64,000 nucleotides of DNA. Origin: Natrialba taiwanensis DSM 12281 (lineage in GTDB: Archaea > Halobacteriota > Halobacteria > Halobacteriales > Natrialbaceae). The stretch covers positions 30,027-94,026 of the forward strand of contig NZ_AOIL01000049.1 of NCBI RefSeq assembly GCF_000337595.1. Direction: 5' to 3'. A model generated the notes under the pieces. It was not told where the DNA came from. It did not search any database and saw only the letters and a list, made by a program, of their open reading frames with translations. Positions 33,317 to 60,813 of this stretch are shown one piece after another; positions within the stretch are counted from its first letter, which is position 1; the number at the start of each line of letters is the position of its first letter. The position numbers were made by a program, and so were the translations under genes.

Positions 33317-33421
33317 GGGCCCTGACGGATTCGAACCATCGACCACTCGGTATCTCACATGACCGCATAGATGCGATCGTGTTATGAGCCGAGCGCTCTA
33401 ACCAGACTGAGCTAAGGGCCC
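33317..33421 (-). tRNA. Elongator tRNA-Met (CAT) with ~31-nt intron
   Basis: The minus strand folds as a full cloverleaf: acceptor GGGCCCT/AGGGCCC, D stem GCTC/GAGC, anticodon stem CTCGG/CCGAG with loop CTCATAA (anticodon CAT at 33384-33386), T stem GATGG/CCGTC with loop TTCGAAT. The mature RNA is 74 nt without CCA. An insertion of 31 nt lies after position 37, folding as CAC-GAT-CGC paired with GCG-GTC-GTG. A haloarchaeal elongator tRNA-Met with an intron is known from Haloferax. The short distance to the island makes it look like an integration site, but the att repeat belongs to tRNA-Thr instead. Confidence 0.93.
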
Positions 33422-34032: not shown

Positions 34033-34047
34033 AAGCCTAGGCCGGGA
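34033..34047. repeat. attL: left 15-bp direct repeat of integrated element
   Basis: AAGCCTAGGCCGGGA, identical to 60741-60755. Bases 34035-34047 copy the last 13 nt (acceptor stem plus T-stem edge) of tRNA-Thr(GGT); the neighbouring bases differ on both sides, so this is the complete repeat. The integrase gene starts 51 bp inside. Confidence 0.85.
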
Positions 34048-34098
34048 CATGATCCAAAGGTTCAATGTCTTCCCTAATAAAACATCGGTGTTCACTGA

Positions 34099-44065: not shown

Positions 44066-44184
44066 TATTGTCGTGGAGATCGTCAATTGGTCAGTGGATC
44101 AGGATACCGATGTAGCGGTGCCAAGCTATTGGACCGACCAATCGAGAAATAAGTCGACAGTCCGGTTAGCCGACTGTAACATTG

Positions 44185-44207
44185 CTTAGACTAAGTAAAG
44201 GTTATAA
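44185..44207 (+). promoter_or_regulatory. Promoter and palindromic operator candidate of the defence-like operon
   Basis: CTTAGACTAAG at 44185-44195 is a 5-bp inverted repeat around one base, directly upstream of GTTATAA (44201-44207), a TATA-like box about 30 bp before the ATG at 44236. The palindrome overlaps the BRE position and may be the site of an autoregulator such as the AbrB-like protein encoded first. Confidence 0.45.
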
Positions 44208-44235
44208 CAGTCCGATTAAGTGATGTGAACATCTG

Positions 44236-44445
44236 ATGACTCGGAAACGAATCGGACAGAATACGGGGAACTCCGGCCGGGTAAATCTCTCTGGCCTCGA
44301 GCTGCAAAAGTTCGGGGCTGATGTCGGTGATTCGGTGAAAGTCGACATTGCCGAGTCCAAGAGCATTGCTCATGCAATGGTCGACAATAGCAACTATGGG
44401 GAATTCGTGATCGTATCAAAACCTGACTCTGAGGGAGGAGATTGA
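44236..44445 (+). CDS. Small AbrB/MazE-like protein, first gene of the defence-like operon
   Basis: A 69-residue protein. The stretch RVNLSGLELQKFGADVGDSV followed by KVDIAE has the look of a swapped-hairpin AbrB domain (loop G-D-x-V then beta strand). Its stop overlaps the ATG of the DUF499 gene by one base (TGATG), with GGAGGAG as Shine-Dalgarno inside its 3' end, so it is translationally coupled to the next gene. It probably autoregulates the operon. Such a small DNA-binding protein leading a defence operon is unusual in the DUF499 group as I know it. Confidence 0.6.
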   Translation: MTRKRIGQNTGNSGRVNLSGLELQKFGADVGDSVKVDIAESKSIAHAMVDNSNYGEFVIVSKPDSEGGD

Positions 44446-47400
44446 TGAGTAGTACCGAGTACACAGCGCTATTTGACGCCTGTACGCCCCGAGAAGACGT
44501 TCTCGAGGGGACGCTTCAGGAAGATCAGTTTGCAGCGAGTCTCGCAACCGTTGCACACTCGTCAGAGGATGCACCGCCGGTCTACAAGGATCCGTCTCTG
44601 TTCTTCGAGATGACGTATCCCACGGACGGGCTGCGTACCCTGCTCAGCAATCTTACCGGACGATTTCTCGCAGGTGGTGGGTACGAAGGCCGGTACAATA
44701 GCAGCATCCTTTGTCTCGATACCCGTTTCGGCGGTGGGAAAACGCACGACTTGATAGCATCGTACCATCTCGCGACGGACCCCACATCTATCGGCGATCT
44801 CGAGCGACACCTTCTCGAGGACGACGCGAATCTCGTCGACGACTATCACGACGCCGTCGATGACGGACTGACCGTTGATTCCGCTGTCTTTGTTGGCGGT
44901 CACGTCGACGCTCGAAACGCCCGAAGCGATCGTTCGGATCCGAACGCTCCGAATACGCGGACGATGTGGGGTGAAATCGCGTATCAGCTGTACGGCCTCG
45001 AGGGATACGAACACCTCAAAGAGTACGACCAAGAGCAGCAAGCACCCGGCGGAAACACCCTCAAGGATCTCTTTGAATACGGCGATGGGCCAGCCCTGAT
45101 CCTGATCGACGAGATCGCCGCGTATCTCGAGGCCGCGTCGGGAGTCGAGGTCGGTGACGCGACCCTCGCAAGCCAGACGCTCAGCTTCATCCTCTCGCTG
45201 CTCGAGACGGCGTCCGAGGTCGACGACGTCACTGTCGTCTACAGTATCGCCGATACCGCGTTCGAGGAGGAGGCGGAAGAAGTCAGGAATCTCGTCGACG
45301 AGCTCAACCAGATCGGGCGTCGTCAGCACAAGACGATCACGCCGACCGACGAGAGCGAGGTCGGGCAGGTGCTTCAGCATCGTCTCTTCGAGGAGATCGA
45401 CGACGAGGCAGCGGAGTCGATCGCGCAGAACTACTTCCAGTTTTACACGGAGAGCGATCGGCAGTTCCCGCAAGAAGCGACCGAAGCGAGCTACGTCAAT
45501 CGGCTGACCAGAGAGTATCCGTTCCATCCGACGGTTCTGGACACGCTGACCGAAAAGATCGACACGATTCCGCGGTTCCAGCGGACCCGCGGTGCGCTGA
45601 AACTGCTGGCTCGGGCCGTCTACTACCTCTGGAACAACCAGCCGGAGCGCTACGATCGCCATTTCGTTCGGCTGTACGATCTCACGCCGTCGGACGACGA
45701 TCCAGGCGGGAGCATCGACTCGACGCTCCACGAGACGCTCTTCGAGTTCGTCGACCTGAGTGCGGCTGTGTCGGCGGACATCTATAGCGAGGACGGGACC
45801 GCGCACGCACAACTCGAGGACCGGAAGTGGACCGAGAAGGGGATCCCACCGCTCGGGAGCCACCTGACGACGGCGGTCCTTTGGCACAGCCTCGCGTACG
45901 GTGAGCAGGCGACCGGGCTGACGCGAGCGGAACTCAACGCGACGCTGGGGCACCAGGATATCCGGTTCGACAACTACGACTCCGCACTCGAGGCACTGGC
46001 CGGCGGCGACATGACTGTCGCGTGCTACTACCTCTACGACGAGGAACGAGTGCGGTTCAAGTCCGATCCGAACCTCATCCGGATTATCGACCAGCGCGTG
46101 GACAACACGCCCGATGCGCAGGCTCGATCGCGGTTCGAGTCCCGGCTCGAGACCGAAGTCGGAACCGGCGGCTTCGAGACGGTCGTCTTCCCCGAATCGC
46201 CGGCCGATCTCCCGGACAAGATATCGAAGCCACAGCTCGCCGTCATGCACATCGACACCGCACCGGTGTCCGACGGCGGTGAGAATACACCGGAGAAGAT
46301 CCAGACGCTCTACGAGAAGTCCGCATCCAAACACGGCGGGCAGGTCCAGAGTCGAGTCTACAAGAACTACGTTCTCTTCCTCGCACCGGACAAGGAACGT
46401 ATCAAGAGTGGGATCCAGGAAGCCCGACAGCTCGAGGCGATCGAGGCGCTGCTCGACGACTCTCAGCAGACGGCGGACCTATCGAACGAGCAGATCGAGG
46501 AACTCCGGGAGCGTCGCGATCAGGCCCACGGGCTGCTCGGCGAACTCGTCCGTGGTGTCTACCGTCACCTCTACTACGTCGATCGGGACGGGCTGACCCA
46601 CATCACGATCAACGCAACCGAGGCCAACGGCGGGACGACGCTCGTAAACGCGGTCGAAGAGACCCTCGACGATCGCCTGATCAGAGCGGACGCCAGCGCG
46701 AAGGGGACGGCGTTCTTCAAACAAAAACTCTGGCAGCGGACCCAGGACAGTATGACGACCCAGCAACTGGTCACCCAGTTCGCAAAGAAACCCGGTCTTC
46801 CCTACCTCTTAAATACGAAACCGCTGCGAAAAACGGTCGAACGAATGGTCGACGACTCTGGGTACGTCTACTGGGACGGCGAAAGCGAGACCGTCTACTG
46901 GGACGGCGACGAGGACGCACAGCTGGACAACTGGGACGAGGATACACCGCTGGTCGAGTCACCCGACGTTCGAACGTCGATTCAGGACTCGGACGTGAAG
47001 ATCGGCGACGAGTACGTCGTTTACACGGATATCGAAGCGTTCCTCGAGGTGCACGCCGACTCGATCGAGGTTCCCGAACCGGTAGAGCCGGAGGGCGACG
47101 ACGAGTCGGACGACGGAGCCGAGTCGACGAGTGGAGACTCGACGGGCTCGGGTTCGAAACAGGTCGCGCTCGGAACTGACGACGAGCGAGCACAGCCCTC
47201 CGAGTGGGACCACGCAACGAGTCTGATGGCCGCCTCTCGAGCGTTCAAGGAAGTCCGCGGCGAGGCGATTTCGGCGGCCACGTCGGACGGCGATGCCGGC
47301 GTGTCGCAGGTCACGGTCGAGGTCGGCGGCGAGGATCAGCTCTCGAAGGGCTCGTTCATCGCCCAACAGAGTGCGCTCAAGAACCGGGCCGATCACGTCT

Positions 47401-47687
47401 CGGTTCGGATGCAGTACGAGACGGTGTCGGACTCGAACGCCACGTACGAGGCGACGTTCCGTGGCGGTCTCGGGGAGTTCTCTCGCGTGACGAACCAGCC
47501 GGACCCGTTCGGCGACACGGTCAGGATCGACCTGAAGTTCCGGGTTGACCTGCCGGAGCCGGAACCGATCACGGACGATGAGGACGATCTGCTGGCGGAA
47601 CTCGAGGACGCCCTCGGACAGACCAACATCGACGTGAAGGTACAGGCTCGAGGACCGACCGAGATCGTGCCAGAGGCCAAACAATGA
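44445..47687 (+). CDS. DUF499 (COG1483) AAA+ ATPase
   Basis: A 1080-residue P-loop ATPase. Walker A is DTRFGGGKTHDL near residues 92-103 and Walker B ALILIDEIAAYL near 215-226; QRTRGALKLLARAVYYLWN near 380 is a further conserved family segment. The C-terminal 200 residues contain an acidic linker (DDESDDGAESTSGDSTG) and a beta-rich region (SVRMQYETVSDSNATYEATF). DUF499 ATPases occur with DUF1156 methyltransferases and helicases in anti-phage islands; the biochemical role is not settled. ATG 44445 is preceded by GGAGGAG. Its last 4 bases overlap the next gene. GC is backbone-like, unlike the methyltransferase that follows. Confidence 0.9.
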   Translation: MSSTEYTALFDACTPREDVLEGTLQEDQFAASLATVAHSSEDAPPVYKDPSLFFEMTYPTDGLRTLLSNLTGRFLAGGGYEGRYNSSILCLDTRFGGGKTHDLIASYHLATDPTSIGDLERHLLEDDANLVDDYHDAVDDGLTVDSAVFVGGHVDARNARSDRSDPNAPNTRTMWGEIAYQLYGLEGYEHLKEYDQEQQAPGGNTLKDLFEYGDGPALILIDEIAAYLEAASGVEVGDATLASQTLSFILSLLETASEVDDVTVVYSIADTAFEEEAEEVRNLVDELNQIGRRQHKTITPTDESEVGQVLQHRLFEEIDDEAAESIAQNYFQFYTESDRQFPQEATEASYVNRLTREYPFHPTVLDTLTEKIDTIPRFQRTRGALKLLARAVYYLWNNQPERYDRHFVRLYDLTPSDDDPGGSIDSTLHETLFEFVDLSAAVSADIYSEDGTAHAQLEDRKWTEKGIPPLGSHLTTAVLWHSLAYGEQATGLTRAELNATLGHQDIRFDNYDSALEALAGGDMTVACYYLYDEERVRFKSDPNLIRIIDQRVDNTPDAQARSRFESRLETEVGTGGFETVVFPESPADLPDKISKPQLAVMHIDTAPVSDGGENTPEKIQTLYEKSASKHGGQVQSRVYKNYVLFLAPDKERIKSGIQEARQLEAIEALLDDSQQTADLSNEQIEELRERRDQAHGLLGELVRGVYRHLYYVDRDGLTHITINATEANGGTTLVNAVEETLDDRLIRADASAKGTAFFKQKLWQRTQDSMTTQQLVTQFAKKPGLPYLLNTKPLRKTVERMVDDSGYVYWDGESETVYWDGDEDAQLDNWDEDTPLVESPDVRTSIQDSDVKIGDEYVVYTDIEAFLEVHADSIEVPEPVEPEGDDESDDGAESTSGDSTGSGSKQVALGTDDERAQPSEWDHATSLMAASRAFKEVRGEAISAATSDGDAGVSQVTVEVGGEDQLSKGSFIAQQSALKNRADHVSVRMQYETVSDSNATYEATFRGGLGEFSRVTNQPDPFGDTVRIDLKFRVDLPEPEPITDDEDDLLAELEDALGQTNIDVKVQARGPTEIVPEAKQ

Positions 47688-48310
47688 CGTCACAGTCGCG
47701 TCCGGAGTCCGCGCTGTCGGCTCGAGAGCAGCCCGGTGTCAGCGGTCTCGGCAGTAGCGTCTACGGCGGTCGTCCGAACTTCGCACTCGTTCGAGATGCT
47801 GGCCCCGATGGCGGCACGCTGACGCTATACGAGTTGCTGCCTGCGGACCAGGCAACGGCCCGGCGGGAGCGACTCGAGCGCTCGAATCCGAACCAGCAAC
47901 TCGTGGCCGATTCGTTCGAGGACGTATTCGGCGAGTCGGATAGCCTCGAGGTCGACCACTGGGACTGGGACGAGTGGACGGCCGTGAAGATCAGACGGCT
48001 GTCCGGCAGTCGACTACGGTCGATCCTGCCGCTGGTTCGCGAGACGCTCGACGGGGCTGGGGTCCACGACTCGAGTGTGACGGGTTCCGGGCAAGGGGAG
48101 GTCTTCCTTCCTGAGACGGCCGGGGTTCGGCTCGCGCTGGGTTTTGTCGGCGTCAAGCCGATCCAGCGCATCGACCGGATGCGAGCGTTCTGCCGGGGTA
48201 TCGTGCGGATGAGCGATGAGGAGTGTTACTATTGGCACGCGAAGTGTCGATCTCCCTCGAGTCCAAACGGGGAGAAAGCACTGCGAATGCTACTAACAGA
48301 CCATATTTAA
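47684..48310 (+). CDS. Small partner protein between DUF499 and DUF1156 genes
   Basis: A 208-residue alpha/beta protein with an N-terminal disordered part (MTSQSRPESALSAREQPGVS) and a core with SVYGGRPNFALVRDAGPDGG, SRLRSILPLVRETLDGAGVH and the C-terminal IVRMSDEECYYWHAKC. It is locked to the ATPase by a 4-bp ATGA overlap and to the methyltransferase by a 2-bp gap. In bacterial systems the same slot is held by DUF3780; the C-terminal W/Y-rich EE-x-YYW pattern is similar in outline, but homology needs a profile search. Function unknown; a structural or regulatory subunit is likely. Confidence 0.75.
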   Translation: MTSQSRPESALSAREQPGVSGLGSSVYGGRPNFALVRDAGPDGGTLTLYELLPADQATARRERLERSNPNQQLVADSFEDVFGESDSLEVDHWDWDEWTAVKIRRLSGSRLRSILPLVRETLDGAGVHDSSVTGSGQGEVFLPETAGVRLALGFVGVKPIQRIDRMRAFCRGIVRMSDEECYYWHAKCRSPSSPNGEKALRMLLTDHI

Positions 48311-48312
48311 TC

Positions 48313-51198
48313 ATGAGTGAGCAACCGATCAAAGATACGGAAAAGTCGCTGAAACCGCTTGCTATAGAGGGGAAGTTACCGCTGAAAGCGGTTGGTATTG
48401 AAAACCTGAAAGAAGACAATCCAAAACATCTACCTCCCCATAGATATCTTCATCCGTGGTTCGCTCGTCGGCCAACACCTGCATCGCGACTTGCAATTCT
48501 TGCATCAGTTCTCCCATCTGATGTTGAATCGGATACACTATTAGATCTGATGCAGATCGGTCCGAAGGAAGACTTAGATGTGCCGATTGAGACATATGTA
48601 GAACAAAAGAAGGCAACTGAAGGCAGCCGAAGTGGGACTCTTAGTGAACACTACAAATACCCACGACCATTTGAACAATCACCAACAGATTCGGAAAAAG
48701 AGAGCCTACATCGGGAATTGAAGGAAACATGGGACGGTGAGCTTCCCACGGTTCTTGATCCAACTGCTGGTGGCGGGGTGATCCCATTTGAAGCTCTACG
48801 CTATGACCTACCGGTGAAAGCCAACGAAATTAACCCGGTTCCGGTGACAATTCTCAAAGTTTTACTTGAATATGCACCAGACGTAGGATCACTCCGTGAG
48901 GAAGTCGAAAGATGGGCGAGCAAAATCGATAGAACCGCAACTAAGCGTCTAGAACCATACTTCCCAAATACAAATCCGCAACAAAGTGTTGATTGTTATA
49001 TTAGTACGCATACTATTACATGTCCAACCTGTGGATCAGATATTCCACTTATCCGAAATTGGCATGCAAAAACTAAGAAAGCAGGAACAGAAGTTGTTGT
49101 AAAGCCGAACTTTGACGAGGATGGTACAATCAGCTATGAGTGTCTTGAATCACCAACAAGCGAAGAGTTAGATGGATTGGACCCAAAAGATGGTCCCATC
49201 TCTCGAGGTGGAAATGCACAGTGTGTTGCTTGTGACGTTGTTTGCGAAGCAGAGAAGATCCAGGAAAAATACCAAAATGGTGATTTCAAATTCGATATTT
49301 ATGCTGTTAAATATTTCTCACCTGATGGTCAGTCACACATCCGGTCGCCAACATCTGCGGATTATGATGCACTTGAACAGGCAGAGGAAGAAATAGAATC
49401 TAATTATGAACTTGCAACGCTACTATCAACCGAAATACCGAAAGGAGCAAAGACAAATGAGCCAATTTCGTATGGAATGACCGAGTGGCGAGATATCTTC
49501 AATCCTCGCCAACTCATCTCTCATTACACGTACTGGGACGCATTTGAAGAACACAAGCCTAAAATCCGCGAAGAATACGACGAAAAGACTTCTGAAGCGA
49601 TTCTATCGTTATTGGCCTTAGTTTCTGGAAAGTTGGTTGACTATAACTCGCGAATGACACCATGGCAAGCGAGTCGGGGTTACCCAGCAAACGTAAGTGG
49701 TGGGAAGAATCTGACGTTACAACGCTCTTTTGCTGACCTCAACATGTCTGTTGGAGGAATGGGAGGGTACAAAGCAACGATTGACAAAATCCTTGATTCC
49801 TATGAGAAGATAGTTTCCTACTTGGACGCCGATACGCCAAGTGGAGATGTTCAAAACGGTGATGCCGCTGATCTCCCCTACGACCCCAATAGTATCCAAT
49901 CAGTTGTAATAGATCCTCCCTATTATAGCAGTGTTATGTATTCTGAACTTTCTGACCTTTATTATGTTTGGATTCGGAAATACCTCAATGATGTAGTTCC
50001 TGATGTGTTCAACACCCCACTCACCGAAAAGTCTGAAGAAGCTGTTGCGAACACAAGTCAATTTGATTCTGTATCTAGTGAAAACTCGTCAAAGCGCAAT
50101 CTCGCCAATGAGTTCTATGAGAAAAAGATGAGCGATATTTTCTCTGAACTTTATCGTGTACTGGAACCAGGCGGTGTTATGACGGTAATGTTTACTCACA
50201 AAGAAACCGATGCATGGGATACCCTCACTATGTCTCTGATTAAATCGGGATTTGTTATTACCTCTACTCATCCAATTACAAGTGAGATGCCCCAACGAGT
50301 CTCAATGCAGGGCAATGCCTCAGCTGATAGTACACTTCTACTCACGGGTCGAAAGCCTCACAAAGAACGTGAACCTGAGAATGCGCCCCCTTCCCTTTGG
50401 AGTGATGTCAAGTCTGACACTCGGGAAGTTGCAAAAGAAGCAGCCCGCGATCTCATCGATTCCGGAATGAGCCTTACAAAAACCGACATCATTATCAGCG
50501 CCTTTGGACCAACACTTCGTGTTTTCACAGATGCGTATCCGGTCGTTGACGACGAAGATAATGAAGTTCCACCACGACGTGCTCTCGAGGAGGCCCGCGA
50601 AGCTGTAACCCAGGTCCTCGTCGACGAATACCTCGAGGCTGAGGGGATCGACGAACTCGACGACGTCACGGAGTGGTATATCCTCTGCTGGCTCGTCCAC
50701 GAGTCCGAGACGTTCTCCTACGACGAGGGCCACCAGCTCGGGCTCGGGATCGGTGTCGACATCGACGAAATCAAGCGCAGCACCAAGACCTGGCGCAAGA
50801 GCCGGGGTGACATCTCCCTTCGTGGCCACGATGGTCGCGTCCAGAACATCAACGAGAAACCCGAGGACCGCTCGAGTCGCATCCCCGTGAATCCGGACGA
50901 CCTCTCCTTCAGCCTCGCGCTGGACAAGATCCACGCAGCGATGCACGTCTACGATGTCCAGGGCGAGAGTGCCTGCTGTGACTGGCTTCGAGAGCGGAAC
51001 TTCGACACCGACTCGACGTTCAAGTCGACCCTCAAGGCGCTGCTCCAAGTGCTGCCCCACGATCACGACGACTGGGAACTCGCCCGGGATCTCGCAGCCG
51101 GACGAACTCGAGACGTTCTGGATCTCGAGTTCAGTCCGAACGTCTTCGCTGATCACGACGATAAGACTATGCAGAGCGAACTCACAGACCATCAATAA
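48313..51198 (+). CDS. DUF1156 Zn-ribbon DNA methyltransferase (COG1743)
   Basis: A 961-residue SAM-dependent DNA methyltransferase, likely N6-adenine or N4-cytosine. PPHRYLHPWFARRPTPASRL at 36-55 is the DUF1156 signature; SAM motif I is LDPTAGGGVIPFEALR near 150; a zinc ribbon has TCPTCGSD near 237 and CVACDVVC near 303; the catalytic DPPY motif is VIDPPYYSSVMYSEL near 533. Base composition changes sharply: bases 48313 to about 50575 are AT-rich with unusual codons, and the last ~620 bp are as GC-rich as the neighbours, implying recombination inside the gene. ATG 48313 follows the partner gene by 2 bp. It probably marks host DNA so the helicase/ATPase act on unmodified DNA. Confidence 0.92.
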   Translation: MSEQPIKDTEKSLKPLAIEGKLPLKAVGIENLKEDNPKHLPPHRYLHPWFARRPTPASRLAILASVLPSDVESDTLLDLMQIGPKEDLDVPIETYVEQKKATEGSRSGTLSEHYKYPRPFEQSPTDSEKESLHRELKETWDGELPTVLDPTAGGGVIPFEALRYDLPVKANEINPVPVTILKVLLEYAPDVGSLREEVERWASKIDRTATKRLEPYFPNTNPQQSVDCYISTHTITCPTCGSDIPLIRNWHAKTKKAGTEVVVKPNFDEDGTISYECLESPTSEELDGLDPKDGPISRGGNAQCVACDVVCEAEKIQEKYQNGDFKFDIYAVKYFSPDGQSHIRSPTSADYDALEQAEEEIESNYELATLLSTEIPKGAKTNEPISYGMTEWRDIFNPRQLISHYTYWDAFEEHKPKIREEYDEKTSEAILSLLALVSGKLVDYNSRMTPWQASRGYPANVSGGKNLTLQRSFADLNMSVGGMGGYKATIDKILDSYEKIVSYLDADTPSGDVQNGDAADLPYDPNSIQSVVIDPPYYSSVMYSELSDLYYVWIRKYLNDVVPDVFNTPLTEKSEEAVANTSQFDSVSSENSSKRNLANEFYEKKMSDIFSELYRVLEPGGVMTVMFTHKETDAWDTLTMSLIKSGFVITSTHPITSEMPQRVSMQGNASADSTLLLTGRKPHKEREPENAPPSLWSDVKSDTREVAKEAARDLIDSGMSLTKTDIIISAFGPTLRVFTDAYPVVDDEDNEVPPRRALEEAREAVTQVLVDEYLEAEGIDELDDVTEWYILCWLVHESETFSYDEGHQLGLGIGVDIDEIKRSTKTWRKSRGDISLRGHDGRVQNINEKPEDRSSRIPVNPDDLSFSLALDKIHAAMHVYDVQGESACCDWLRERNFDTDSTFKSTLKALLQVLPHDHDDWELARDLAAGRTRDVLDLEFSPNVFADHDDKTMQSELTDHQ

Positions 51199-51263
51199 AC
51201 AACAGAATCACGATCTGGATTGTCCTATATTTCTTAAACAGATATCAGAATATAATGGCCCTA

Positions 51264-52124
51264 TTATTTTATTTCCGAGTCAAATATGGCTCGGAATAGT
51301 TGACGCCGGTTATTCTTTTTATCTTTGTATCCATTCCGGCCATGTGAGATCTTATGATTCGCAACAATCAGTAGATCACCAGAGTTAAGATTAAACTCGG
51401 TGTAAAATTTACTACTGTTTTCCAATTTATCATTCATCCAATTTAGTGCTGCCTGGAGATGTTCTACTTCGTTAACATTCCATTCTGACGTGTTATCCAA
51501 TGAGAACCTGTTCACAAGCCCATATCGGTTAATATCGAAAGCCGGTCCAGTTACAGACGTACCAGATCGGTCTACGTCACTTCGAGTGAGTGCCTGCTCT
51601 GAGGATAGTGCATTTGCTAACGTCGGCTGTTCACGTGCAAGTTGACAGAATGCACTTACAGAATTGAATATCCGGCTTTCTCCACCACTCTCAGCTTGAG
51701 AGCGACATAACATCATCGTCGTTGGTATAGTACCAATTGGCTCAAGCGTCCCATCAACATGAACTGCTTGCTCCTCGTTAGAGAAGAACCCTTCATGATT
51801 TCCACCAGTGTTCTTTCCGCCCCCTATTTGATTAATCCCAAACTCGTCATGTAAACTCCTGTCATTTGAATATGAAGATGGAACAAATGCTGAATCAAAT
51901 CCGAATTCTTGTGCGACCTTCGCCAGTTCTTTTCTAGGCTGGTTAATATCACCGATAGTCATTTTCGCAAAACCTAGCTCTCTATATGTATATAGTACAG
52001 ATTGTTTGAACCCATCAGATGATGGATCAAACTTTCCAATGTCGGCTTTCTTAGTCACAGATTGATTGTACTGAGCATGACAAACAGGGTCTAGATCGAT
52101 GTTTGAGAGATCACTAATTTCCAT
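51264..52124 (-). CDS. TauD/clavaminate-synthase-like Fe(II)/2-oxoglutarate dioxygenase
   Basis: A 286-residue oxygenase. The first metal pair is HVDGTLEPIG (His122, Asp124); the distal His and the 2-oxoglutarate Arg lie in SHGRNGYKDKKNNRRQLFR (about His261 and Arg274). The H-G-R spacing is closest to clavaminate synthase/asparagine-oxygenase types that hydroxylate amino acids or peptides. The gene is AT-rich and on the opposite strand to the defence-like genes, two bases downstream of the membrane protein. I infer a recently acquired two-gene insert. It is not a TET/JBP-type base hydroxylase by motif. Confidence 0.85.
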   Translation of the reverse strand: MEISDLSNIDLDPVCHAQYNQSVTKKADIGKFDPSSDGFKQSVLYTYRELGFAKMTIGDINQPRKELAKVAQEFGFDSAFVPSSYSNDRSLHDEFGINQIGGGKNTGGNHEGFFSNEEQAVHVDGTLEPIGTIPTTMMLCRSQAESGGESRIFNSVSAFCQLAREQPTLANALSSEQALTRSDVDRSGTSVTGPAFDINRYGLVNRFSLDNTSEWNVNEVEHLQAALNWMNDKLENSSKFYTEFNLNSGDLLIVANHKISHGRNGYKDKKNNRRQLFRAIFDSEIK

Positions 52125-52126
52125 TG

Positions 52127-53170
52127 TCAGGTATCCCCTATTTCTAAAGCCTGGAGAGCATTAGCTCTTGATGCAACCGCTAAAGCACGTACGGATAACT
52201 CATCATCCTTATCAACGAATGCATCAATTCTATCGGACGTAATCGCTAATACCCCAATTCGACCAGGAAGCGGTATAGCAAGTACACTATCATAGTATTC
52301 ACCTATACCTTCTTCTTGAACATGTTTAGGGCGACTATTTTCAAGAGCCTCCCAAACGATTGATGGGTTCCCACGAGCTTTTACCCAACTACTTCCCCGA
52401 GGGCGATCGCTAGGTGCAGGATATTTCGTAAAGCTTGTTAGGACTTCTACCTGTTCGTCATTGTCGAGATCCATTCTTGTTCGCAAATATAGCTTTGCAG
52501 TGAATGTACCTCCTGTGAAAATATAGGGGCAGAGATCAACAATCTCTTTAGTTGCTCTATTCAACCTCTTTGCAGCTTTATCACCGATATTCAATTTATT
52601 CAGCGAGATATTTGTTTCTCTAGAATCATTAAATATATTTTCTCTCTTTAGACACTTTTGGATAGTTTTCTGATCTTTGTTCGACACATCCTCATACTTC
52701 GGAAGATTCTCTGATAATTGTTCAATTATCTTCTCTTCGTCTCTATTTCTTGATTCTTCATCGTAAATCAAATTGAATAGGGCTAACTGGCCAGCTAATC
52801 TTTCACAAAGATTAACCAAACGAATCCGTGTTGCCTTCTCATTCAGTAATCTCAGTTCTTTTGGTATCAAACGTATAGTCAGAATAACTAATGATAAGAG
52901 GAATATGTAAACAACCCAGATGATAACACTAGTTACTGGATCAAGTATTTGCAGTGAGAGGATGAACCCAAGCAGTGCACCTGATGCTACTAATACTGCT
53001 TCTATTACTCTCAATCCTGCTTGTAGTTGGCCGAACCGTTGGCCACCGGCTTGTCGTCTAAATTCTAGGAGAAGGTCTTGGTACCGTTGCAAGACGGATG
53101 AATCAAATTCATGGGCAACATCGTCTGATTGGGAGACTTTAGAGAGTATCTCCTTCGCTTGGTCAGACAT
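52127..53170 (-). CDS. Two-TM protein with C-terminal GAF-like region
   Basis: A 347-residue protein. Membrane helices are at about 52-72 (RVIEAVLVASGALLGFILSL) and 78-100 (TSVIIWVVYIFLLSLVILTI). The N-terminal 45 residues and the middle (EESRNRDEEKIIEQLSENLP) are coiled coil-like. The last 140 residues are alpha/beta with YYDSVLAIPLPGRIGVLAIT near 305, the pattern of a GAF sensor domain. Function unknown; related membrane-plus-GAF proteins sense small molecules. Same strand as the dioxygenase, 2 bp apart, so the two are co-transcribed. Strongly AT-rich compared with the rest of the window. Confidence 0.75.
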   Translation of the reverse strand: MSDQAKEILSKVSQSDDVAHEFDSSVLQRYQDLLLEFRRQAGGQRFGQLQAGLRVIEAVLVASGALLGFILSLQILDPVTSVIIWVVYIFLLSLVILTIRLIPKELRLLNEKATRIRLVNLCERLAGQLALFNLIYDEESRNRDEEKIIEQLSENLPKYEDVSNKDQKTIQKCLKRENIFNDSRETNISLNKLNIGDKAAKRLNRATKEIVDLCPYIFTGGTFTAKLYLRTRMDLDNDEQVEVLTSFTKYPAPSDRPRGSSWVKARGNPSIVWEALENSRPKHVQEEGIGEYYDSVLAIPLPGRIGVLAITSDRIDAFVDKDDELSVRALAVASRANALQALEIGDT

Positions 53171-53281
53171 TAATGAGTCAGTGAGACTCCCTCTACATTA
53201 TACTAGTGGGTGACCAATGTACCTATAGAACCTATGCTGGAAGTTAAGTATAAACAAAGTCAACCGTGAGACAGTTCGAAC

Positions 53282-56200
53282 ATGTCGGGACTCTCTGAGC
53301 GGGACTGGCTATCGATTTATCAAAGCCAACCCAGTGAAAATGGAGCCTATCTAGTTGACGAGTTCTATATTCCTGCACTCGAGCGAAGCGTCCGCTACGA
53401 CCGCATTGCCGGCTACTTCTCGAGCAGCGCACTCGCGGTCGCCTCTCGCGGGATCGACACGCTCCTCGAGAACGATGGCGAGATGCGCCTCGTCGTCGGT
53501 GCCGAACTGTACGAGACTGACCGCCCGGTTCTCGAGGCACTGACCGACGAACTCGAAGAATCGCTCGATGATCTCGACGACGAACGATTGAACGCACAGC
53601 TCGCACTCCTCGCCCGCCTCCTCCGCGAAGATCGACTCCACATCAAGGTCGCCGTGCCTCGCGAGGGAAACTGGCGGATCTTCCATCCGAAGATGGGCAT
53701 CTTCCACGACGCGGACGACAACGCGCTGTCGTTCGAGGGGAGCGTCAACGAGACCATCGGCGGCTGGAAACGCAACTATGAGCGGTTCAAGGTCCACTGT
53801 TCGTGGATTGAGGAACAGCAGTCGTACGTCGACGGCGACATCGACACGTTCGATCGACTTTGGTCGAACGAACACCCCTATATCGAAGTGTACGATCTGC
53901 CCGAAGCGATCGAGAAGGAACTCATCGACTGGAAGGATCCTGACTCGGAAACCGAACTCAAGGAAGCGATCCAAATAGCACGTGGGGAAGCGCCGCCGAC
54001 CGAACGCGACAAGGCGAATATCGTCGCCGACGGTCACCTCTCGCCAGGTGGGCTCGCACTCGCCGAAGAAGCGAGTACGATCGAGCCGTGGCCACACCAG
54101 CGCGTCGTCTCTGATACGCTCGTCAGCACCTATCCGAATAGCTTCCTCCTCTGTGACGAGGTCGGGCTCGGGAAAACCATCGAGGCAGGTCTCACTCTCT
54201 CCCGGCTCGGTCTCACCGACGAACTCGAGACGGGACTATTGCTCGTTCCAGCAAGCCTCACGATCCAGTGGCAGGAGGAGCTTTGGGAGAAGTTCAACCT
54301 GAACGCGTTCCGCTACGATCGAGGGAGCAACTACGAGTACGCGTTCATCGATGCGTTCGGTCAGGAGCACTCACCGCCGGCTGTCTCCGATATCGATCCC
54401 GGCTCGCACGAACAGGCGTGGGTCGACAGCCCCATCTGGCGGTTCCTCCACCAGCGCCAGACTGACGATACCATCGACGGGCCGACGATCGTCGTGATGT
54501 CCTGGCATACGGCTCGAATGTCCGGCCGCTGGGAACAGATCGCACCAGAGAGTGGTGACCAGGTCCGGACACGCGACGACGTTCCGGCGAGTTGCCGCGG
54601 CCGATCGCTGGAGAATCGAGAGGGGGTCTGGGACGCTGTCATCGTCGACGAAGCCCACAACGCCCGGAAAGGGAGTAACTTCTACTCGCTACTCGAGCAA
54701 CTCCGTGAGCACACCCAGACGTACTACCTGCTGACTGCGACACCGATGCAGCTCCACGCTGGCGAACTCTACGATCTCATGTCGCTGCTCGATTTGCCCG
54801 GCGAGTGGGACAATAAAGACGACTTCACCGAGTTCTTCGAAACCCGACAGGCACTCTCACAGGCGCTCAAGTCGGAATTATGGGCTGATAATACGTCGAC
54901 TGATGATTCGTGGTCGGCACAGGCGACACTCACACAGGGACGCTACCAGGACCGACTGCCGGGCGAACGGAGTCTCTCCGACCGGGTTTTCGACGCCGTC
55001 GCCGATGAACTGGATGTCGGCGACGAGCAGCACGCCCGTTCCATCGCAAAACAACGGGTTCTCCGAGCCTGTGACCTCGCTGGCGACTACGGTAAGCACT
55101 ACGACGGGTACATCGAGACGTTCGAAGCCGCGATCGACGGATACGACATCGACCCGTTCGACGCGAAGGAGGACGAGAAGTTGAAGTACCTCCTGTATCC
55201 GGAATGGAAGGCCGACGAGGAGTGGCTGATGTTTTCGCGGAACGACCGGCTCAACGCGTTAGACGAACTCTCTGAAGCGGGCTGGCAGGTCGTCCGAGAC
55301 GTTCTGTCCGCTTCGACGCCGGTGGACGCGCTCATTCATCGCAACACTCGGCCAACGCTCCGCAAATACGAGCAGGTCGACCTACTCGATGAGACCGTCC
55401 CGGACCGCGATCCTGAGCAGCACAAGATCGAACTGACCGAGGAGACGCGCCACGTTTACGACCGGATCGACGATTTCACGCGGAAGTTCTACAAACTCGC
55501 CCAGCAATCGAGTGAGGCCGAATCGCGCGCTATCGGGTTCGTGATGACCACGTACCGCCAGCGGCTTACGAGCAGTGTCTACGCCATCTCGCAGAGTCTT
55601 CAGGCCCGACTCCAGAAACTGCGGAGCCAACGGGCCGTCCTCAAAGGAAAACAGCGAGCGGCGGACCGCAGATCTCGTGGCTCCGAACAGGTCGTTCTCG
55701 AGACGCTCTCCGAATACGATCTCGAGGACATCGACGTACTGGACGAACTCGAGGACGACCTCGAGGATCAAAATCTCGCGGAAGTCGTTCCGAACGTCAC
55801 AGACGAAGGGGTCCACCTGTTAGAAGAGGAAATCGAGGAATTGGAGTCGTTCGTCGGTGAACTCGAACGAATTGATCAAGATCCGAAAATCAGCCAACTC
55901 AGAGACGATCTCGACGAACTGGATAAAGACGGCCACAATCGAACCATTGTCTTTACGCAGTACACGGATACGATGGACTTCATTCGAGAAAGTCTCGTGC
56001 CGATCTACGGTGGGAGAATCGCGACGTACTCTGGACGCGGTGGTGAGCTGTACGATCCCGAGGCCGACGAGTGGACAACAGTTGGCAAGGAACGGGTAAA
56101 GCGAGAATTCTCGGCGGATTCGGGTAGCGTCGGTATTCTCGTTTGCACTGACTCGGCCAGTGAGGGGCTGAACCTCCAGGAATGTGGCGCACTGATCAAT

Positions 56201-57205
56201 TACGATCTGCCGTGGAATCCGATGCGAGTCGAACAGCGAATCGGTCGTATCGATCGTATCGGCCAGGAACACGACGAGATCACGATATTGAACTACAGCT
56301 ACGAGGATACGGTCGAAACGGACATCTACGAACGACTCGACGACCGCATTAACCTCTTCGAGAACGTCGTCGGAGAGATGCAACCCGTCCTTTCCGGCGT
56401 CAGTCAACAGATTCGAGCCGCAACTCTCGAGGCCGAAGGAGACAACAGCTCCGAGGTCGTCGAGAAGGCTGATCGAGAGTTTTCGGAGCAGATCGAGGAT
56501 CAAGAGAACGCCGATCGCGTCGATGTCGGGGAATCTCTGGAAACCGTAGAGACGCCTATTCGGCAAGAAATCATCGATGAGGCGAAGCTCGACGCCTGGA
56601 AGTCCTACACCCATCCAGATCTGATCGACGTTGGTGAGACAGACTACAGCTACACAGAGCCGTTCGAAACGTCGGGTCTCGAGGCCACGTTGGTCGGAAA
56701 CGAAACCCTCGTAGAGGAGGGGATCACGTTTACCCCAATTAGTGAACTCGATATCGAGCTGGTGAAGAGCGAATATGCCGATGCTGTCGACTTCGAGGAG
56801 ACGATCTATCGCCTCACTTGCAGCGGGCTCAACGTCCCAGAGTCTGATGGTGAACACACACTCGCTGAAATCATTTCCTCCGACGAGGATGCTATTGCGG
56901 TGACGTTTTCGGCAAAGTGTGCCGATGAGTTCTCATCGGTCCACTATCTCGCCCCAGGGAATCCGTTGCTTAGACAGCTCATTGACGTGATCCGAGAGCA
57001 GAGTAAGAATCCAGCCCGGCTTTCGAAGCGAGCGGAAGACCGCGACGAGTCTCGCACCCGGCCAGTTGTTTGTGGGTGGGGGCGAGATGGTAACCTTGCG
57101 AGACTTAACCGAGATGGTGCTATCAAAGAGCATCAATCGATTGAGGCACTCAACGTGTGGAAGAAGACCTTTTTGGAAAACCGGGAGCGAGCCAATCAAT
57201 CCTGA
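53282..57205 (+). CDS. PLD-domain SNF2 helicase of the defence-like system
   Basis: A 1307-residue protein. Residues 1-200 form a phospholipase-D-like domain with HPKMGIFH near 134 (H-x-K) and FEGSVNETIGG near 150. The SNF2/DEAD core follows: Walker A DEVGLGKTIEAGLTLSR near 291, Walker B VIVDEAHNARK near 452, motif III LLTATPMQLHAGE near 484, helicase C-terminal ASEGLNLQECGALINYDLPW near 960, and motif VI VEQRIGRIDRIGQEH near 985. PLD domains of this kind can cut DNA. DISARM class 1 has a SNF2 helicase too, but without this fusion partner set. It starts 111 bp after the AT-rich insert. Confidence 0.92.
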   Translation: MSGLSERDWLSIYQSQPSENGAYLVDEFYIPALERSVRYDRIAGYFSSSALAVASRGIDTLLENDGEMRLVVGAELYETDRPVLEALTDELEESLDDLDDERLNAQLALLARLLREDRLHIKVAVPREGNWRIFHPKMGIFHDADDNALSFEGSVNETIGGWKRNYERFKVHCSWIEEQQSYVDGDIDTFDRLWSNEHPYIEVYDLPEAIEKELIDWKDPDSETELKEAIQIARGEAPPTERDKANIVADGHLSPGGLALAEEASTIEPWPHQRVVSDTLVSTYPNSFLLCDEVGLGKTIEAGLTLSRLGLTDELETGLLLVPASLTIQWQEELWEKFNLNAFRYDRGSNYEYAFIDAFGQEHSPPAVSDIDPGSHEQAWVDSPIWRFLHQRQTDDTIDGPTIVVMSWHTARMSGRWEQIAPESGDQVRTRDDVPASCRGRSLENREGVWDAVIVDEAHNARKGSNFYSLLEQLREHTQTYYLLTATPMQLHAGELYDLMSLLDLPGEWDNKDDFTEFFETRQALSQALKSELWADNTSTDDSWSAQATLTQGRYQDRLPGERSLSDRVFDAVADELDVGDEQHARSIAKQRVLRACDLAGDYGKHYDGYIETFEAAIDGYDIDPFDAKEDEKLKYLLYPEWKADEEWLMFSRNDRLNALDELSEAGWQVVRDVLSASTPVDALIHRNTRPTLRKYEQVDLLDETVPDRDPEQHKIELTEETRHVYDRIDDFTRKFYKLAQQSSEAESRAIGFVMTTYRQRLTSSVYAISQSLQARLQKLRSQRAVLKGKQRAADRRSRGSEQVVLETLSEYDLEDIDVLDELEDDLEDQNLAEVVPNVTDEGVHLLEEEIEELESFVGELERIDQDPKISQLRDDLDELDKDGHNRTIVFTQYTDTMDFIRESLVPIYGGRIATYSGRGGELYDPEADEWTTVGKERVKREFSADSGSVGILVCTDSASEGLNLQECGALINYDLPWNPMRVEQRIGRIDRIGQEHDEITILNYSYEDTVETDIYERLDDRINLFENVVGEMQPVLSGVSQQIRAATLEAEGDNSSEVVEKADREFSEQIEDQENADRVDVGESLETVETPIRQEIIDEAKLDAWKSYTHPDLIDVGETDYSYTEPFETSGLEATLVGNETLVEEGITFTPISELDIELVKSEYADAVDFEETIYRLTCSGLNVPESDGEHTLAEIISSDEDAIAVTFSAKCADEFSSVHYLAPGNPLLRQLIDVIREQSKNPARLSKRAEDRDESRTRPVVCGWGRDGNLARLNRDGAIKEHQSIEALNVWKKTFLENRERANQS

Positions 57206-57261
57206 ATCGGATCCGGAGCATCTCTACTCTCACACCAGCGGTAAAGAGTCCGTAGCGTAGA

Positions 57262-58425
57262 CTACGATTCCATCTCGAACGCCTGTTCTAGCAGATCAGC
57301 AATGCTCTGAATTGCACCAATTGCAGTCTGATCGATTTGCAGGCTGACCCGATCAGTCTCGCCGAGATGCTTCTTCCCAAGCGAAAGTACAATCTCGTCG
57401 TCAGGAGAGAGTGACGCGGAGAGCCAGGCGGTCACGTTTTCCGAGCCGACGAACCAAGCTGTAGTGAGATCATACCACGATTCCTCACGCTCGTCCGCTG
57501 AAGGATGATTCGACTCGAATCCCTCTTGCTTGAGTTCGGTCGCAAAGCTCCGAAGTTCTTCACAGTCACTTCGCTCGAGTTGGACAGTGACTCGGTGCTT
57601 ATCCCCACCGAATCCCCAGTCCTTCTTTCCGATCTGAAGCGTCAAATGTCCAGTCGGTGATCGGGAGATCGTTGCCCAGGCTCGGCTGCTATGAGAATAT
57701 CGTCCTTGACGAAGATATCGCTGTGCGACTGCGACCCACTCCCCGGACTTATCGAACGACGCCCAGTACTCGCCTGGAATGGGTATCTCGAGTTCGACAG
57801 CCGGAGACTTTTCCTGTCTCAGCCATCGTATGACATCTGGATAGCCCTCAAGGCCAGATCGGTCTGGGAGCGCACACGGCCAGACAGTGAGCAGCCCCGA
57901 GAGATCGACATCGTACCCCGAGAAATCGTCTTCATACAGCCATACGACGCTATATCCTCGATTCAGATAATGGTCCGTCACAGCTTCGATGTCTTTGCCC
58001 TCGTTTCGATACTGTGCTTCGACTGCGATTCCATTCCCGTAGGGAGCACATGGCTCATCAAAGCTCAAGAGAACGTCCGCAATCCTCTCATCCACCCCTG
58101 ACTCAAGTTCGACTGTCGCGTCAGGAAAATCGTGCTCGAGCCGGGCATAGGCAATAGACTTCATCTTGAGGTGTTCGTCCGACTCTCCAGGACATTTGAC
58201 AGCGTTACCGAGATCACCAAACGTCGATTGGCCGTCGGTAGCTGAGAGTTCAGCTCGATCGTCCCGGTCGTGGTGACGGAAGTGCCGTGAGACGAACGCG
58301 TCACCTCGTTCATACGATTTCACGACACCCATGGGATCGTCACAGACAGGGCACGTCACTTCAGCATCATCGTCAACCTGTGGCGGGATAACACGGTCAC
58401 CGTCCACCGTTCCAAGATACGGCAT
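57262..58425 (-). CDS. CoiA-like nuclease-domain protein
   Basis: A 387-residue protein. The N-terminus has a zinc finger (VTCPVCDDPMGVV near 24) and RHFRHHDR near 46; then EHLKMKSIAYARLEHDFP, and the PD-(D/E)XK-like nuclease core ELESGVDERIADVLLSFDEP with VEAQYRNEGKDI near 131. The last 200 residues are a haloarchaea-specific beta-rich domain. CoiA-type proteins help process incoming DNA in competence; in this context a role in degrading foreign DNA is inferred. It converges with the helicase (57 bp between stops), so it may be an accessory gene of the system. Confidence 0.75.
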   Translation of the reverse strand: MPYLGTVDGDRVIPPQVDDDAEVTCPVCDDPMGVVKSYERGDAFVSRHFRHHDRDDRAELSATDGQSTFGDLGNAVKCPGESDEHLKMKSIAYARLEHDFPDATVELESGVDERIADVLLSFDEPCAPYGNGIAVEAQYRNEGKDIEAVTDHYLNRGYSVVWLYEDDFSGYDVDLSGLLTVWPCALPDRSGLEGYPDVIRWLRQEKSPAVELEIPIPGEYWASFDKSGEWVAVAQRYLRQGRYSHSSRAWATISRSPTGHLTLQIGKKDWGFGGDKHRVTVQLERSDCEELRSFATELKQEGFESNHPSADEREESWYDLTTAWFVGSENVTAWLSASLSPDDEIVLSLGKKHLGETDRVSLQIDQTAIGAIQSIADLLEQAFEMES

Positions 58426-58796: not shown

Positions 58797-60578
58797 TCAG
58801 TCGCCGAGCGCGTTTCGGCTTTTCATCCGTCGCGGGAGATTTTCTCGCTCCTCGAGCAGCTTTTGCCGCGTCCTGTCGAGGGGACGATCCCCTCGAGACC
58901 GGCTGGTATCCGCACGAGCCTTCGACAACTGGAATACATCCGTGAGACGGAATCGTTCGGTCGATCCGTCAGCATACTCGAATTTGATCCAGATTCCGCT
59001 GATGCCGAGTTCATCATCGTACTGCTGCTGATAGCTGGTGACGGCCTCACGGGCGATCTCAAGGGCCTCATCTCGATCAGTTGGCGTGTATCGGACCTGG
59101 AGGAGCTTCCGGCTGCGCTCGTCAGTGTCACGAACGCCAACCTCGTAGGAGTTCTTGAAACGACTGAACGGCCCGCTCTCGAACCCAGAGGCGTCTTCTG
59201 CGACCTGCATAGCTGTTGCCCCAATAGTTCGTCGGAACTGCTCCTCAGCCGATCTGACGCGCTTGAGCATCTCTTGGGCAGCGAAGTCGCTCTCGACCTC
59301 GAGCTTCCCGTAGGTATGCCGGACGAATCCTTCGAGCCGGTCGACCACTCGACGGATTGTCCGATAGGAGTAACCGGTCTTCTCGGCTGCGTCCTTCGGT
59401 GAAATCTCTCCGCCGTCGGTAAGGAGCATCTCGGTTACCGCTCGATCACTTCCGTTCATGTCGCCCCAGAGTCGCATCACGGCGTTCTCCTGCTCACTCT
59501 CGATCTCCGGAAGTGGACAGTCAACGAGCTTCAGGCTTCGACGGCTTCGACGCTCTGGATCGAAGTAGGCGTCCTCGTGATATTCGTCTCCGCCGGTCAC
59601 GTCGAGGCCAGCCCAATCGAGGATGTTCATCAACATCTCTTCGATTTCACGCTGACACTGCTCGATGTCGAGTGCATCCTCGCGATCCCAGTAGATGGTT
59701 TCGTCTGTAATCGAAGACTGGAACGAAACCTCGAGTTTGGGATGCCACCCGAACTGATCGGGGTTGTAGTTATCGGGATTTCGCATGTAGTAGTGCTTCA
59801 CCTCTTTCCCGATCTTGTGGCCAGGGATAAGCTTCGCTGCGCGCTCTGAGTCAACCATCGTCGTCACATGGTCGCCGGGACGCTCGCGGTTGTCCTCGAC
59901 GTGCTTCCGGTAGCCCGATCGATCGGACTCGAGCAGTTGGTGAATGCGCGCAATTGGTCCGTCGGCCGCATAGATCGGTCCGGAGACATCCTGCTTCGGA
60001 CGGACGTACACCGCAGCGTCGTTAACGTTACTCGACCCGTGCGGGTTCGAGAAATACCGACGTGGAACGTCGAATGCCGCGAACGCCTCAGCCGTGAGAT
60101 CGACGTAGTCCGCGAAGTCGATATTCGACGCCTGGGCACGAACGGTGAGATACGGCCGACCCAGATCCATGTAGCCGTTGACCTTGCTAATCTCGCCCGT
60201 CTCATCGTCGCGTTTCTTCATGTCCGGCCAACGCGGATAGACGGTGAACGTGCCGCCTTTCACCCGCTGGCTCGAGTCGGCGCTCTCGTCGTCGTACGTC
60301 TCGTCCATGCAGACGACATACACGCGATAGAGGTACGCCGTCTCGAGCTTGTACGACGGATCTGACCACGGGAGAATCGGCTGATCGTCGTAGTCTAGGA
60401 CGGCCGCCCATTCTTGTCCATCGAACTCGAACGTCGTCGACGGCTTTCCGTTATTGACCCAGTCGTGCTCTTTCCGGAAGGTGGTGAGTCCATAGTACGG
60501 CTTCAGCCCGTATTCGTCGAAATTGAGGTAGGCGTCGAACTCGTGGCACTGGGTCTCGAGGAACTGCTGGGCGGCCAC
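58797..60578 (-). CDS. Haloarchaeal mobile-element protein (DUF7845-like) with HTH
   Basis: A 593-residue protein I recall as typical of integrated haloarchaeal elements (DUF7845-like, unverified). It starts at GTG 60578 (AAQQFLETQCHEFDAYLNF). The middle is alpha/beta; a winged helix is visible near 405-435 (SPKDAAEKTGYSYRTIRRVV, DRLEGFVRHTYGKL). The C-terminus is charged and arginine-rich. Its position next to the attachment site suggests replication, copy control or maintenance of the element; function is unproven. GGAGAGGTGG about 7-15 bp upstream is a Shine-Dalgarno, within the small frame that precedes it. Confidence 0.7.
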   Translation of the reverse strand: MAAQQFLETQCHEFDAYLNFDEYGLKPYYGLTTFRKEHDWVNNGKPSTTFEFDGQEWAAVLDYDDQPILPWSDPSYKLETAYLYRVYVVCMDETYDDESADSSQRVKGGTFTVYPRWPDMKKRDDETGEISKVNGYMDLGRPYLTVRAQASNIDFADYVDLTAEAFAAFDVPRRYFSNPHGSSNVNDAAVYVRPKQDVSGPIYAADGPIARIHQLLESDRSGYRKHVEDNRERPGDHVTTMVDSERAAKLIPGHKIGKEVKHYYMRNPDNYNPDQFGWHPKLEVSFQSSITDETIYWDREDALDIEQCQREIEEMLMNILDWAGLDVTGGDEYHEDAYFDPERRSRRSLKLVDCPLPEIESEQENAVMRLWGDMNGSDRAVTEMLLTDGGEISPKDAAEKTGYSYRTIRRVVDRLEGFVRHTYGKLEVESDFAAQEMLKRVRSAEEQFRRTIGATAMQVAEDASGFESGPFSRFKNSYEVGVRDTDERSRKLLQVRYTPTDRDEALEIAREAVTSYQQQYDDELGISGIWIKFEYADGSTERFRLTDVFQLSKARADTSRSRGDRPLDRTRQKLLEERENLPRRMKSRNALGD

Positions 60579-60740: not shown

Positions 60741-60755
60741 AAGCCTAGGCCGGGA
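60741..60755. repeat. attR: right 15-bp direct repeat at the tRNA-Thr 3' end
   Basis: AAGCCTAGGCCGGGA, identical to 34033-34047. Bases 60743-60755 are the 3' end of tRNA-Thr on the minus strand, so integration leaves the tRNA intact here. Confidence 0.85.
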
Positions 60756-60813
60756 TTTGAACCCGGGCTCTCGTCCTTACCAAGGACGCGCTTTACCGCT
60801 AAGCTACCCAGGC
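60743..60813 (-). tRNA. tRNA-Thr (GGT), target site of the integrated element
   Basis: The minus strand folds as a cloverleaf of 71 nt without CCA: acceptor GCCTGGG/CCTAGGC (one G-T pair), anticodon stem CGTCC/GGACG with loop TTGGTAA (anticodon GGT), T stem CCGGG/CCCGG with loop TTCAAAT. Its last 13 nt are duplicated at the far end of the island (34035-34047), as expected for integration into the 3' end of a tRNA gene. Confidence 0.93.

Follow-up and report, generated by a model that had tools for sequence, protein, structure and literature searches.

A 64,000-nucleotide stretch of the genome of the haloarchaeon Natrialba taiwanensis DSM 12281 (contig NZ_AOIL01000049.1; hereafter the window) carries a four-gene core composed of a DUF499 AAA+ ATPase, a DUF7680 protein, a DUF1156 N6-adenine DNA methyltransferase and a helicase in which an HKD/PLD nuclease domain is fused to a SNF2 core. 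We consider it likely that this core is an antiviral system that resembles restriction-modification and belongs to the DUF499-centred, BREX-related (Hma) kind, that it represents a DUF7680 branch of that kind and that it is carried by an integrative island. The system is a real and widespread branch of a known kind, whose DUF7680 component was not found described: a literature search found no paper naming DUF7680 and a single one naming DUF3780. A preliminary description of the locus had proposed an archaeal branch of the DUF499/DUF1156/(DUF3780)/helicase family. The families and their linkage bear this out, except that the branch extends to several bacterial phyla and that the kind of system is not new, having already been published (Hma in PADLOC; BREX-related Types 1-3 in PMC12839542, 2026).

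Organization of the core genes

The six open reading frames (ORFs) reported previously were confirmed at the given positions and strands (Table 1; all coordinates are positions in the whole window). The stop codon of the AbrB-like gene overlaps the DUF499 start in the sequence TTGATGA (44442-44448), the DUF499 and DUF7680 genes overlap by ATGA (47684-47687), and 2 bp separate the DUF7680 stop codon (48308-48310) from the ATG of the methyltransferase gene (48313). The couplings of 1-4 bp claimed for the first four genes are two overlaps and one 2-bp gap. The gene list was however incomplete, since two minus-strand genes located between the methyltransferase and the helicase genes (51264-52124 and 52127-53170) had been overlooked; because of these two genes, the helicase gene lies outside the coupled operon here.

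The motifs of the core enzymes are intact. The DUF499 ATPase displays the Walker A motif GGGKTH and the Walker B motif LILIDE. Considering only the ATPases longer than 900 residues, GGGKTH is found in 60 of 61 haloarchaeal proteins, in 23 of 23 bacterial DUF7680-type proteins and in 26 of 26 DUF3780-type proteins. The methyltransferase contains DPTAGGG, DPPY at residue 534 and the Cys pairs 237/240 and 304/307. In the helicase, the motifs HPKMGIFHD, GLGKT, DEAH and RIGRIDR are located at residues 135, 295, 456 and 986, respectively. This protein is also recognized by NF042964 (NCBIfam, 5.8e-100) and, on residues 21-344, by PbeA (PADLOC, 4.4e-67). The HKD N-termini of the DUF7680-type and DUF3780-type helicases are homologous (hhalign E 1.3e-28); this homology and the PbeA match to the N-terminus make the PLD/HKD assignment firm. 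The labels DUF499, DUF1156 and PLD-SNF2 are confirmed by the profiles. No AbrB or CoiA model of Pfam is matched by the proteins labelled AbrB-like and CoiA-like. From these families and motifs, the core would combine a marking enzyme and a cutting enzyme, as previously proposed.

Table 1. Features of the locus and of the surrounding island.
Feature	Position	Strand	Evidence or remark
attL-like copy of tRNA-Thr 3' end	34033..34055	.	AAGCCTAGGCCGGGA, identical to 60741-60755
Tyrosine integrase, left end of island	34099..35343	+	PF00589 2.5e-14
Conserved leader before AbrB-like gene, ~44-50 bp	44185..44235	+	Probable promoter/operator; regulatory role putative
AbrB-like small protein, 69 aa	44236..44445	+	Probable autoregulator; role putative
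DUF499 AAA+ ATPase	44442..47687	+	Start TTG, or ATG at 44445; PF04465 1.5e-32 (Pfam)
DUF7680 protein (208-aa partner)	47684..48310	+	PF24728 2.2e-39 (Pfam)
DUF1156 N6-adenine DNA methyltransferase	48313..51198	+	PF06634 5.6e-07; N6_N4_Mtase 1.1e-04
Embedded cargo 1, TauD/TfdA-like Fe/2-oxoglutarate dioxygenase	51264..52124	-	PF02668 3.3e-18
Embedded cargo 2, protein with two predicted transmembrane helices and GAF-like C-terminus	52127..53170	-	Hydropathy
HKD/PLD nuclease-SNF2 helicase fusion, 1307 aa	53282..57205	+	SNF2 1.7e-16; PLDc_2 0.003 (weak)
Satellite, CoiA-like Zn-ribbon and PD-(D/E)XK-like nuclease	57262..58425	-	Motif-based
Satellite, DUF7845 and helix-turn-helix protein	58797..60578	-	PF25227 8.9e-102
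Right end of island, tRNA-Thr(GGT) whose 3' end is attR-like	60741..60813	-	

Linkage and taxonomic distribution of the core

DUF7680 is present in 64 of 391 Halobacteria genomes. Genes for DUF499 and the methyltransferase adjoin the DUF7680 gene in all 65 haloarchaeal loci fetched, and the helicase gene is found in 63 of them, which are all the loci that are long enough, the other two running off contig ends. Since every long-enough haloarchaeal locus contains the four genes, their linkage is not due to chance. A genome scan with a DUF7680 alignment recovered 80 loci, of which 29 are bacterial, for example from Chloroflexota, cyanobacteria, Bacillota, Actinomycetota and Planctomycetota; the branch also occurs in alphaproteobacteria. 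Most of the bacterial loci, many of them on short contigs, contain DUF499, DUF7680 and methyltransferase genes in this order, and most also contain the helicase gene. The core order of the window is found on plasmids of Aminobacter and Nostoc; Euhalothece is an exception, with a DUF499 gene located apart. No DUF7680 was found in viral contigs.

A chance cluster, or a decayed island remnant whose genes have no common function, might be suggested by the low GC content of the island, its foreign genes and the embedded genes on the opposite strand. This explanation is refuted for the four-gene core by the exceptionless linkage, the intact motifs and the same order in several bacterial phyla, and we regard it as highly improbable for the locus. 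The co-occurrence proposed as a check in the preliminary description, which had envisaged such a cluster, holds for the partner, always associated with DUF499 and DUF1156 in haloarchaeal loci, whereas the CoiA-like gene is mostly not.

Comparison with BREX-related systems

According to PMC12839542 (NAR 2026), the DUF499-centred BREX-related systems comprise Type-1 (Hma), Type-2 (HKD-helicase and DUF3780) and Type-3 (PglZ and iSTAND), and are viewed as restriction-modification-like, with a recognition insert within the methyltransferase. The Type-2 systems (NF042962, NF042963 and NF042964 with DUF3780; for example the Pseudomonas plasmid locus L144) display the same four-gene order as the window. 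Both contain a DUF499 ATPase, an HKD-SNF2 helicase in which HKD replaces Tudor, a small alpha+beta partner, occasional inserted cargo, and a DUF1156 methyltransferase with a variable insert and Cys pairs between motif I and DPPY. Unlike in Type-2, the partner slot of the window is filled by DUF7680, itself a probable distant relative of DUF3780, none of the locus proteins is matched by the DUF3780 model (PF12635), and the ATPase and the methyltransferase fall into groups of their own in the trees, with Type-1 sequences not clearly placed between these and the DUF3780 groups.

The Type-1 systems, named Hma in PADLOC (for example Thermus L145 and Rhodococcus L261), share the DUF499 ATPase, the DUF1156 methyltransferase and the SNF2 helicase with the window, where HmaA (8e-60, on the SNF2 core only), HmaB (3e-64) and HmaC (4.6e-95) are all matched, HmaB by the methyltransferase and HmaC by the ATPase. 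However, the two Type-1-like helicases compared are devoid of the N-terminal HKD domain present in the window (their Walker A motif is located at about residue 120-130), and the two corresponding loci have no small partner, a HEPN-domain protein adjoining the methyltransferase. No nuclease family equivalent to the C-terminal PD-(D/E)XK nuclease of Type-1 was matched after the SNF2 core of the window helicase. Type-3 BREX (BrxC, BrxXI, BrxHII, PglZ) and ARMADA have a homologous helicase, and the logic of a methyltransferase with a helicase in common. As stated in the preliminary description, PglZ and DUF1998 (DrmB of DISARM) are without match, for PglZ among the nine locus proteins with Pfam, PADLOC and NCBIfam. 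BrxA/F and a YprA-like helicase are likewise unmatched among the proteins scanned, and the DrmD/DrmA matches are confined to the SNF2 core.

A tree of the SNF2 cores, with BrxHII-like helicases as outgroup, places both partner-bearing lineages on one side of a branch with a Shimodaira-Hasegawa-like approximate likelihood ratio test (SH-aLRT) value of 98.6. This branch divides the HKD-helicase cores from the Type-1-like and BrxHII-like helicases.

Variability of the methyltransferase

The window and a related operon (L062) share 93% identity in the ATPase, 95% in the partner and 92% in the helicase, but only 67% in the methyltransferase. Most of residues 160-600 of the latter show 35-55% identity, with one 40-residue block at 72%, and identity is back at 95-100% from about residue 720 on. 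The same contrast is observed among 16 related operons, with mean identities of 93% for the ATPase, 90% for the helicase and 75% for the methyltransferase. Most central blocks of the methyltransferase show 59-71% identity and most of the C-terminal ones 87-93%; the central region forms six clusters at 80% identity whereas the ATPases form a single one at 85%. These values suggest that the recognition region of the methyltransferase has been repeatedly exchanged, or is diverging fast. By analogy with PglX of BREX, called a specificity factor in the title of a reference listed in PMC12839542, the methyltransferase may determine at which site DNA is marked and also cut.

DUF7680 and its probable relationship to DUF3780

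Comparison with hhalign of 22 diverse DUF3780 sequences and 33 DUF7680 sequences gave a probability of 88, a P value of 3.2e-06 and a score of 45.5 over 151 collinear columns. As controls, 60 column shuffles reached a maximum score of 24.2 and the reversed profile 11.9. The low P value was obtained with this diverse set only: sets of few sequences gave values from 0.0026 to 0.21, and haloarchaeal DUF7680 alone 0.28. The AlphaFold2 models (predicted local distance difference test, pLDDT, 86.7 for DUF7680 and 85.2 for DUF3780) have in common a predicted strand-strand-strand-helix-strand topology followed by a run of helices, an order in agreement with the description of DUF3780 in PMC12839542. 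The fold search detected nothing below E 0.001, neither against the PDB for both models nor against viral models for DUF7680. In the loci examined, DUF3780 occupies the same gene slot as DUF7680 and no locus contains both. Furthermore, an ASCH domain (PF04266, E 8.6e-06 to 1.3e-04) is present at the N-terminus of seven DUF7680 ORFs of Chloroflexota, and fusions of DUF3780 to ASCH/PUA and RAMA are reported in PMC12839542. From the collinear profile match, the modelled topology, the gene slot, the mutual exclusion and the ASCH fusions, DUF7680 is probably a diverged homologue of DUF3780. The 208-aa partner, previously presented as a new component, is indeed real and always linked, but is probably not unrelated to known ones. 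We propose that it acts as an adaptor or reader.

The likeness of DUF7680 to DUF3780 and the single clade of HKD-helicase cores make a DUF7680 branch, beside or within the Type-2 BREX-related systems, the simplest filing, rather than a wholly new system. A separate fourth subtype, in which the HKD helicase and a similar-looking partner would have been acquired separately from the DUF3780 systems, appears rather unlikely. The very long branch to the DUF3780 helicases favours it, as do the DUF499 and methyltransferase trees, which separate the DUF3780 and DUF7680 lineages and leave Type-1 unresolved between them. The grouping of the helicase cores, the homologous HKD domains, and the partner fold, slot and ASCH fusions common to both lineages argue in the opposite direction.

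Besides these two trees, several points weigh against a DUF7680 branch of a restriction-modification-like kind related to Type-2. The helicase tree was obtained from a quick search and contains long branches. The window proteins are far below the NCBIfam anti-phage cut-offs of NF042962, NF042963 and NF042964 (207.6 of 1200, 143 of 1000 and 335.9 of 1100 bits, respectively). A second profile comparison of DUF7680 and DUF3780, with another sequence set, gave a P value of only 0.0059. PF12635 matched nothing in the 391 Halobacteria, yet the controls were also unmatched, so that the absence of DUF3780 from Halobacteria is not established. In the window, two foreign genes part the helicase from the coupled genes. 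Finally, a variable methyltransferase centre is by itself no proof that restriction tracks it.

Cargo, satellite and leader genes

Of the 61 haloarchaeal loci that could be measured, 16 contain further genes, over 0.7-6 kb, in the slot between the methyltransferase and helicase genes. The haloarchaeal cargo includes a Mokosh MkoA-related SF1 helicase, a PHP-AAA ATPase, an HSDR_N protein, DUF3800, Nmad3 and a STAND-like protein, among others; in bacteria the slot contains VapC, MBL or TnpB genes. Defence genes embedded in Hma loci are already known (HECs, PMC12988326). The dioxygenase and two-transmembrane genes of the window are such slot cargo, and both are AT-rich (GC about 39-44%). The dioxygenase contains H122-x-D124 and the distal H257. 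In its neighbour, the helices are predicted at about residues 53-101 and the GAF-like tail was judged by eye only; no relative of this protein was found in the 391 Halobacteria genomes or in the plasmids searched. In five other genomes (L069, L081, L082, L083 and L088), a protein of about 312-323 aa without Pfam match is encoded 8-9 bp after the methyltransferase gene and is a candidate new embedded defence gene.

The CoiA-like gene, previously counted among the components, was rejected as a core part since it is found near only 7 of the 65 DUF7680 loci. Its close homologues elsewhere adjoin DISARM/ARMADA-like genes (DrmMI/BrxHII-like). An alignment of 25 sequences reveals the conservation of D117, E136-x-Q138 and C25/C28. 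The DUF7845 gene also adjoins a CoiA-like gene in L109 and L127. We propose that four genes, encoding the dioxygenase, the two-transmembrane protein, the CoiA-like nuclease and the DUF7845 protein, are exchangeable cargo or satellites; three of them (dioxygenase, CoiA-like and DUF7845) are possibly chance neighbours and not parts of one machine.

The label "AbrB-like" corresponds to a motif and to family conservation only, the protein having no Pfam match. Homologues are located directly before DUF499 in 29 of the 65 haloarchaeal DUF7680 loci; the AbrB-like leader claimed as a component therefore recurs, but in fewer than half of them. About 30 other loci are preceded by a sequence that shares 81-94% identity, over 32-51 bp, with the one before this gene; farther upstream, the sequences are unrelated.

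Probable integrative island and upstream repeats

One copy of the 15-bp direct repeat AAGCCTAGGCCGGGA lies at position 34033, the other at the tRNA-Thr 3' end (60741). Because the two copies enclose the integrase gene (34099) and a region of lowered GC content, the system is probably carried by an integrative island of about 26.7 kb (34033-60755).

Just before the operon (43223-44140), we observe five direct units of about 183 bp, with spacings of 185, 182, 185 and 187, which are 61-77% similar to the first unit over a 56-bp core. Similar arrays, with 3-5 units each, are present in the genomes G034 (twice), G275, G291, G097 and G141, and partly in G092. Most of them come after one and the same tyrosine recombinase of 197 aa (87-95% identity) and several also after a nucleotidyltransferase of 221 aa. 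The genes after the arrays differ and some are defence-like (DUF499-like, DrmE-like, DrmMI-like). The arrays are possibly recombination or segregation sites of a platform swapping defence genes. The consensus RNA fold of the units is weak, with many pairs broken. In L279 and L282, copies of the unit adjoin ORFs whose translation repeats one short peptide, as in a CRISPR array. In the window, the 197-aa recombinase is encoded at 41996-42589 (PF00589 4.6e-12); it is highly conserved across distant haloarchaeal genera and is found on either side of DUF499 operons in other genomes. A double winged-helix HVO_2833-like protein and a DUF6036-like nucleotidyltransferase, encoded at 37042-38834, look like a toxin-antitoxin pair. 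Just left of the island, on the minus strand (33316-33421), a 106-bp tRNA gene recognized by Rfam and not by ARAGORN probably carries an intron.

Proposed mode of action and implications

We infer a defence function for the system. N6-adenine methylation by the DUF1156 enzyme would mark the host DNA, the recognition region inserted in this enzyme determining the site. The DUF499 ATPase and the DUF7680 adaptor would form a complex that surveys DNA for methylation. Where DNA is unmarked or foreign, the SNF2 translocase, with the HKD nuclease at its N-terminus, would be loaded and degrade it. The AbrB-like protein probably represses its own operon.

Instead of acting by restriction-modification, the system might block viral DNA replication without cutting, in a BREX-like manner, the HKD domain being a DNA-binding or regulatory module. 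In the PLD family, a chain with a single HKD motif needs to dimerize for activity, which counts in favour of this alternative. According to PMC13326643, the restriction exerted by BREX relies on an inhibition of phage DNA replication, and PMC12839542 gives a BREX origin to the BREX-related systems. Among the DUF7680-type helicases, all 63 from haloarchaea and 18 of 19 from bacteria nevertheless retain an HxK motif, which argues for catalysis, and we hold a replication block to be unlikely.

More tentatively than restriction-modification itself, and as a possibility we would not yet favour, DUF7680 and DUF3780 may form one adaptor superfamily which reads DNA methylation and couples a swappable specificity to the HKD translocase-nuclease, resulting in a re-targetable platform. 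If so, exchange of the methyltransferase recognition region would reprogramme restriction, the internal slot would collect extra defence genes, and the dioxygenase with its two-transmembrane partner could act on modified viral bases. The near-identical operons differing mainly in the methyltransferase centre offer a natural experiment on which subunit sets the specificity of restriction, and the slot between the methyltransferase and helicase genes is a place to search for new defence genes. The partner-bearing HKD branch of the DUF499 systems is extended to haloarchaea, and DUF7680, a Pfam domain of unknown function, gains a probable relative (DUF3780), a set of partners and a testable job.

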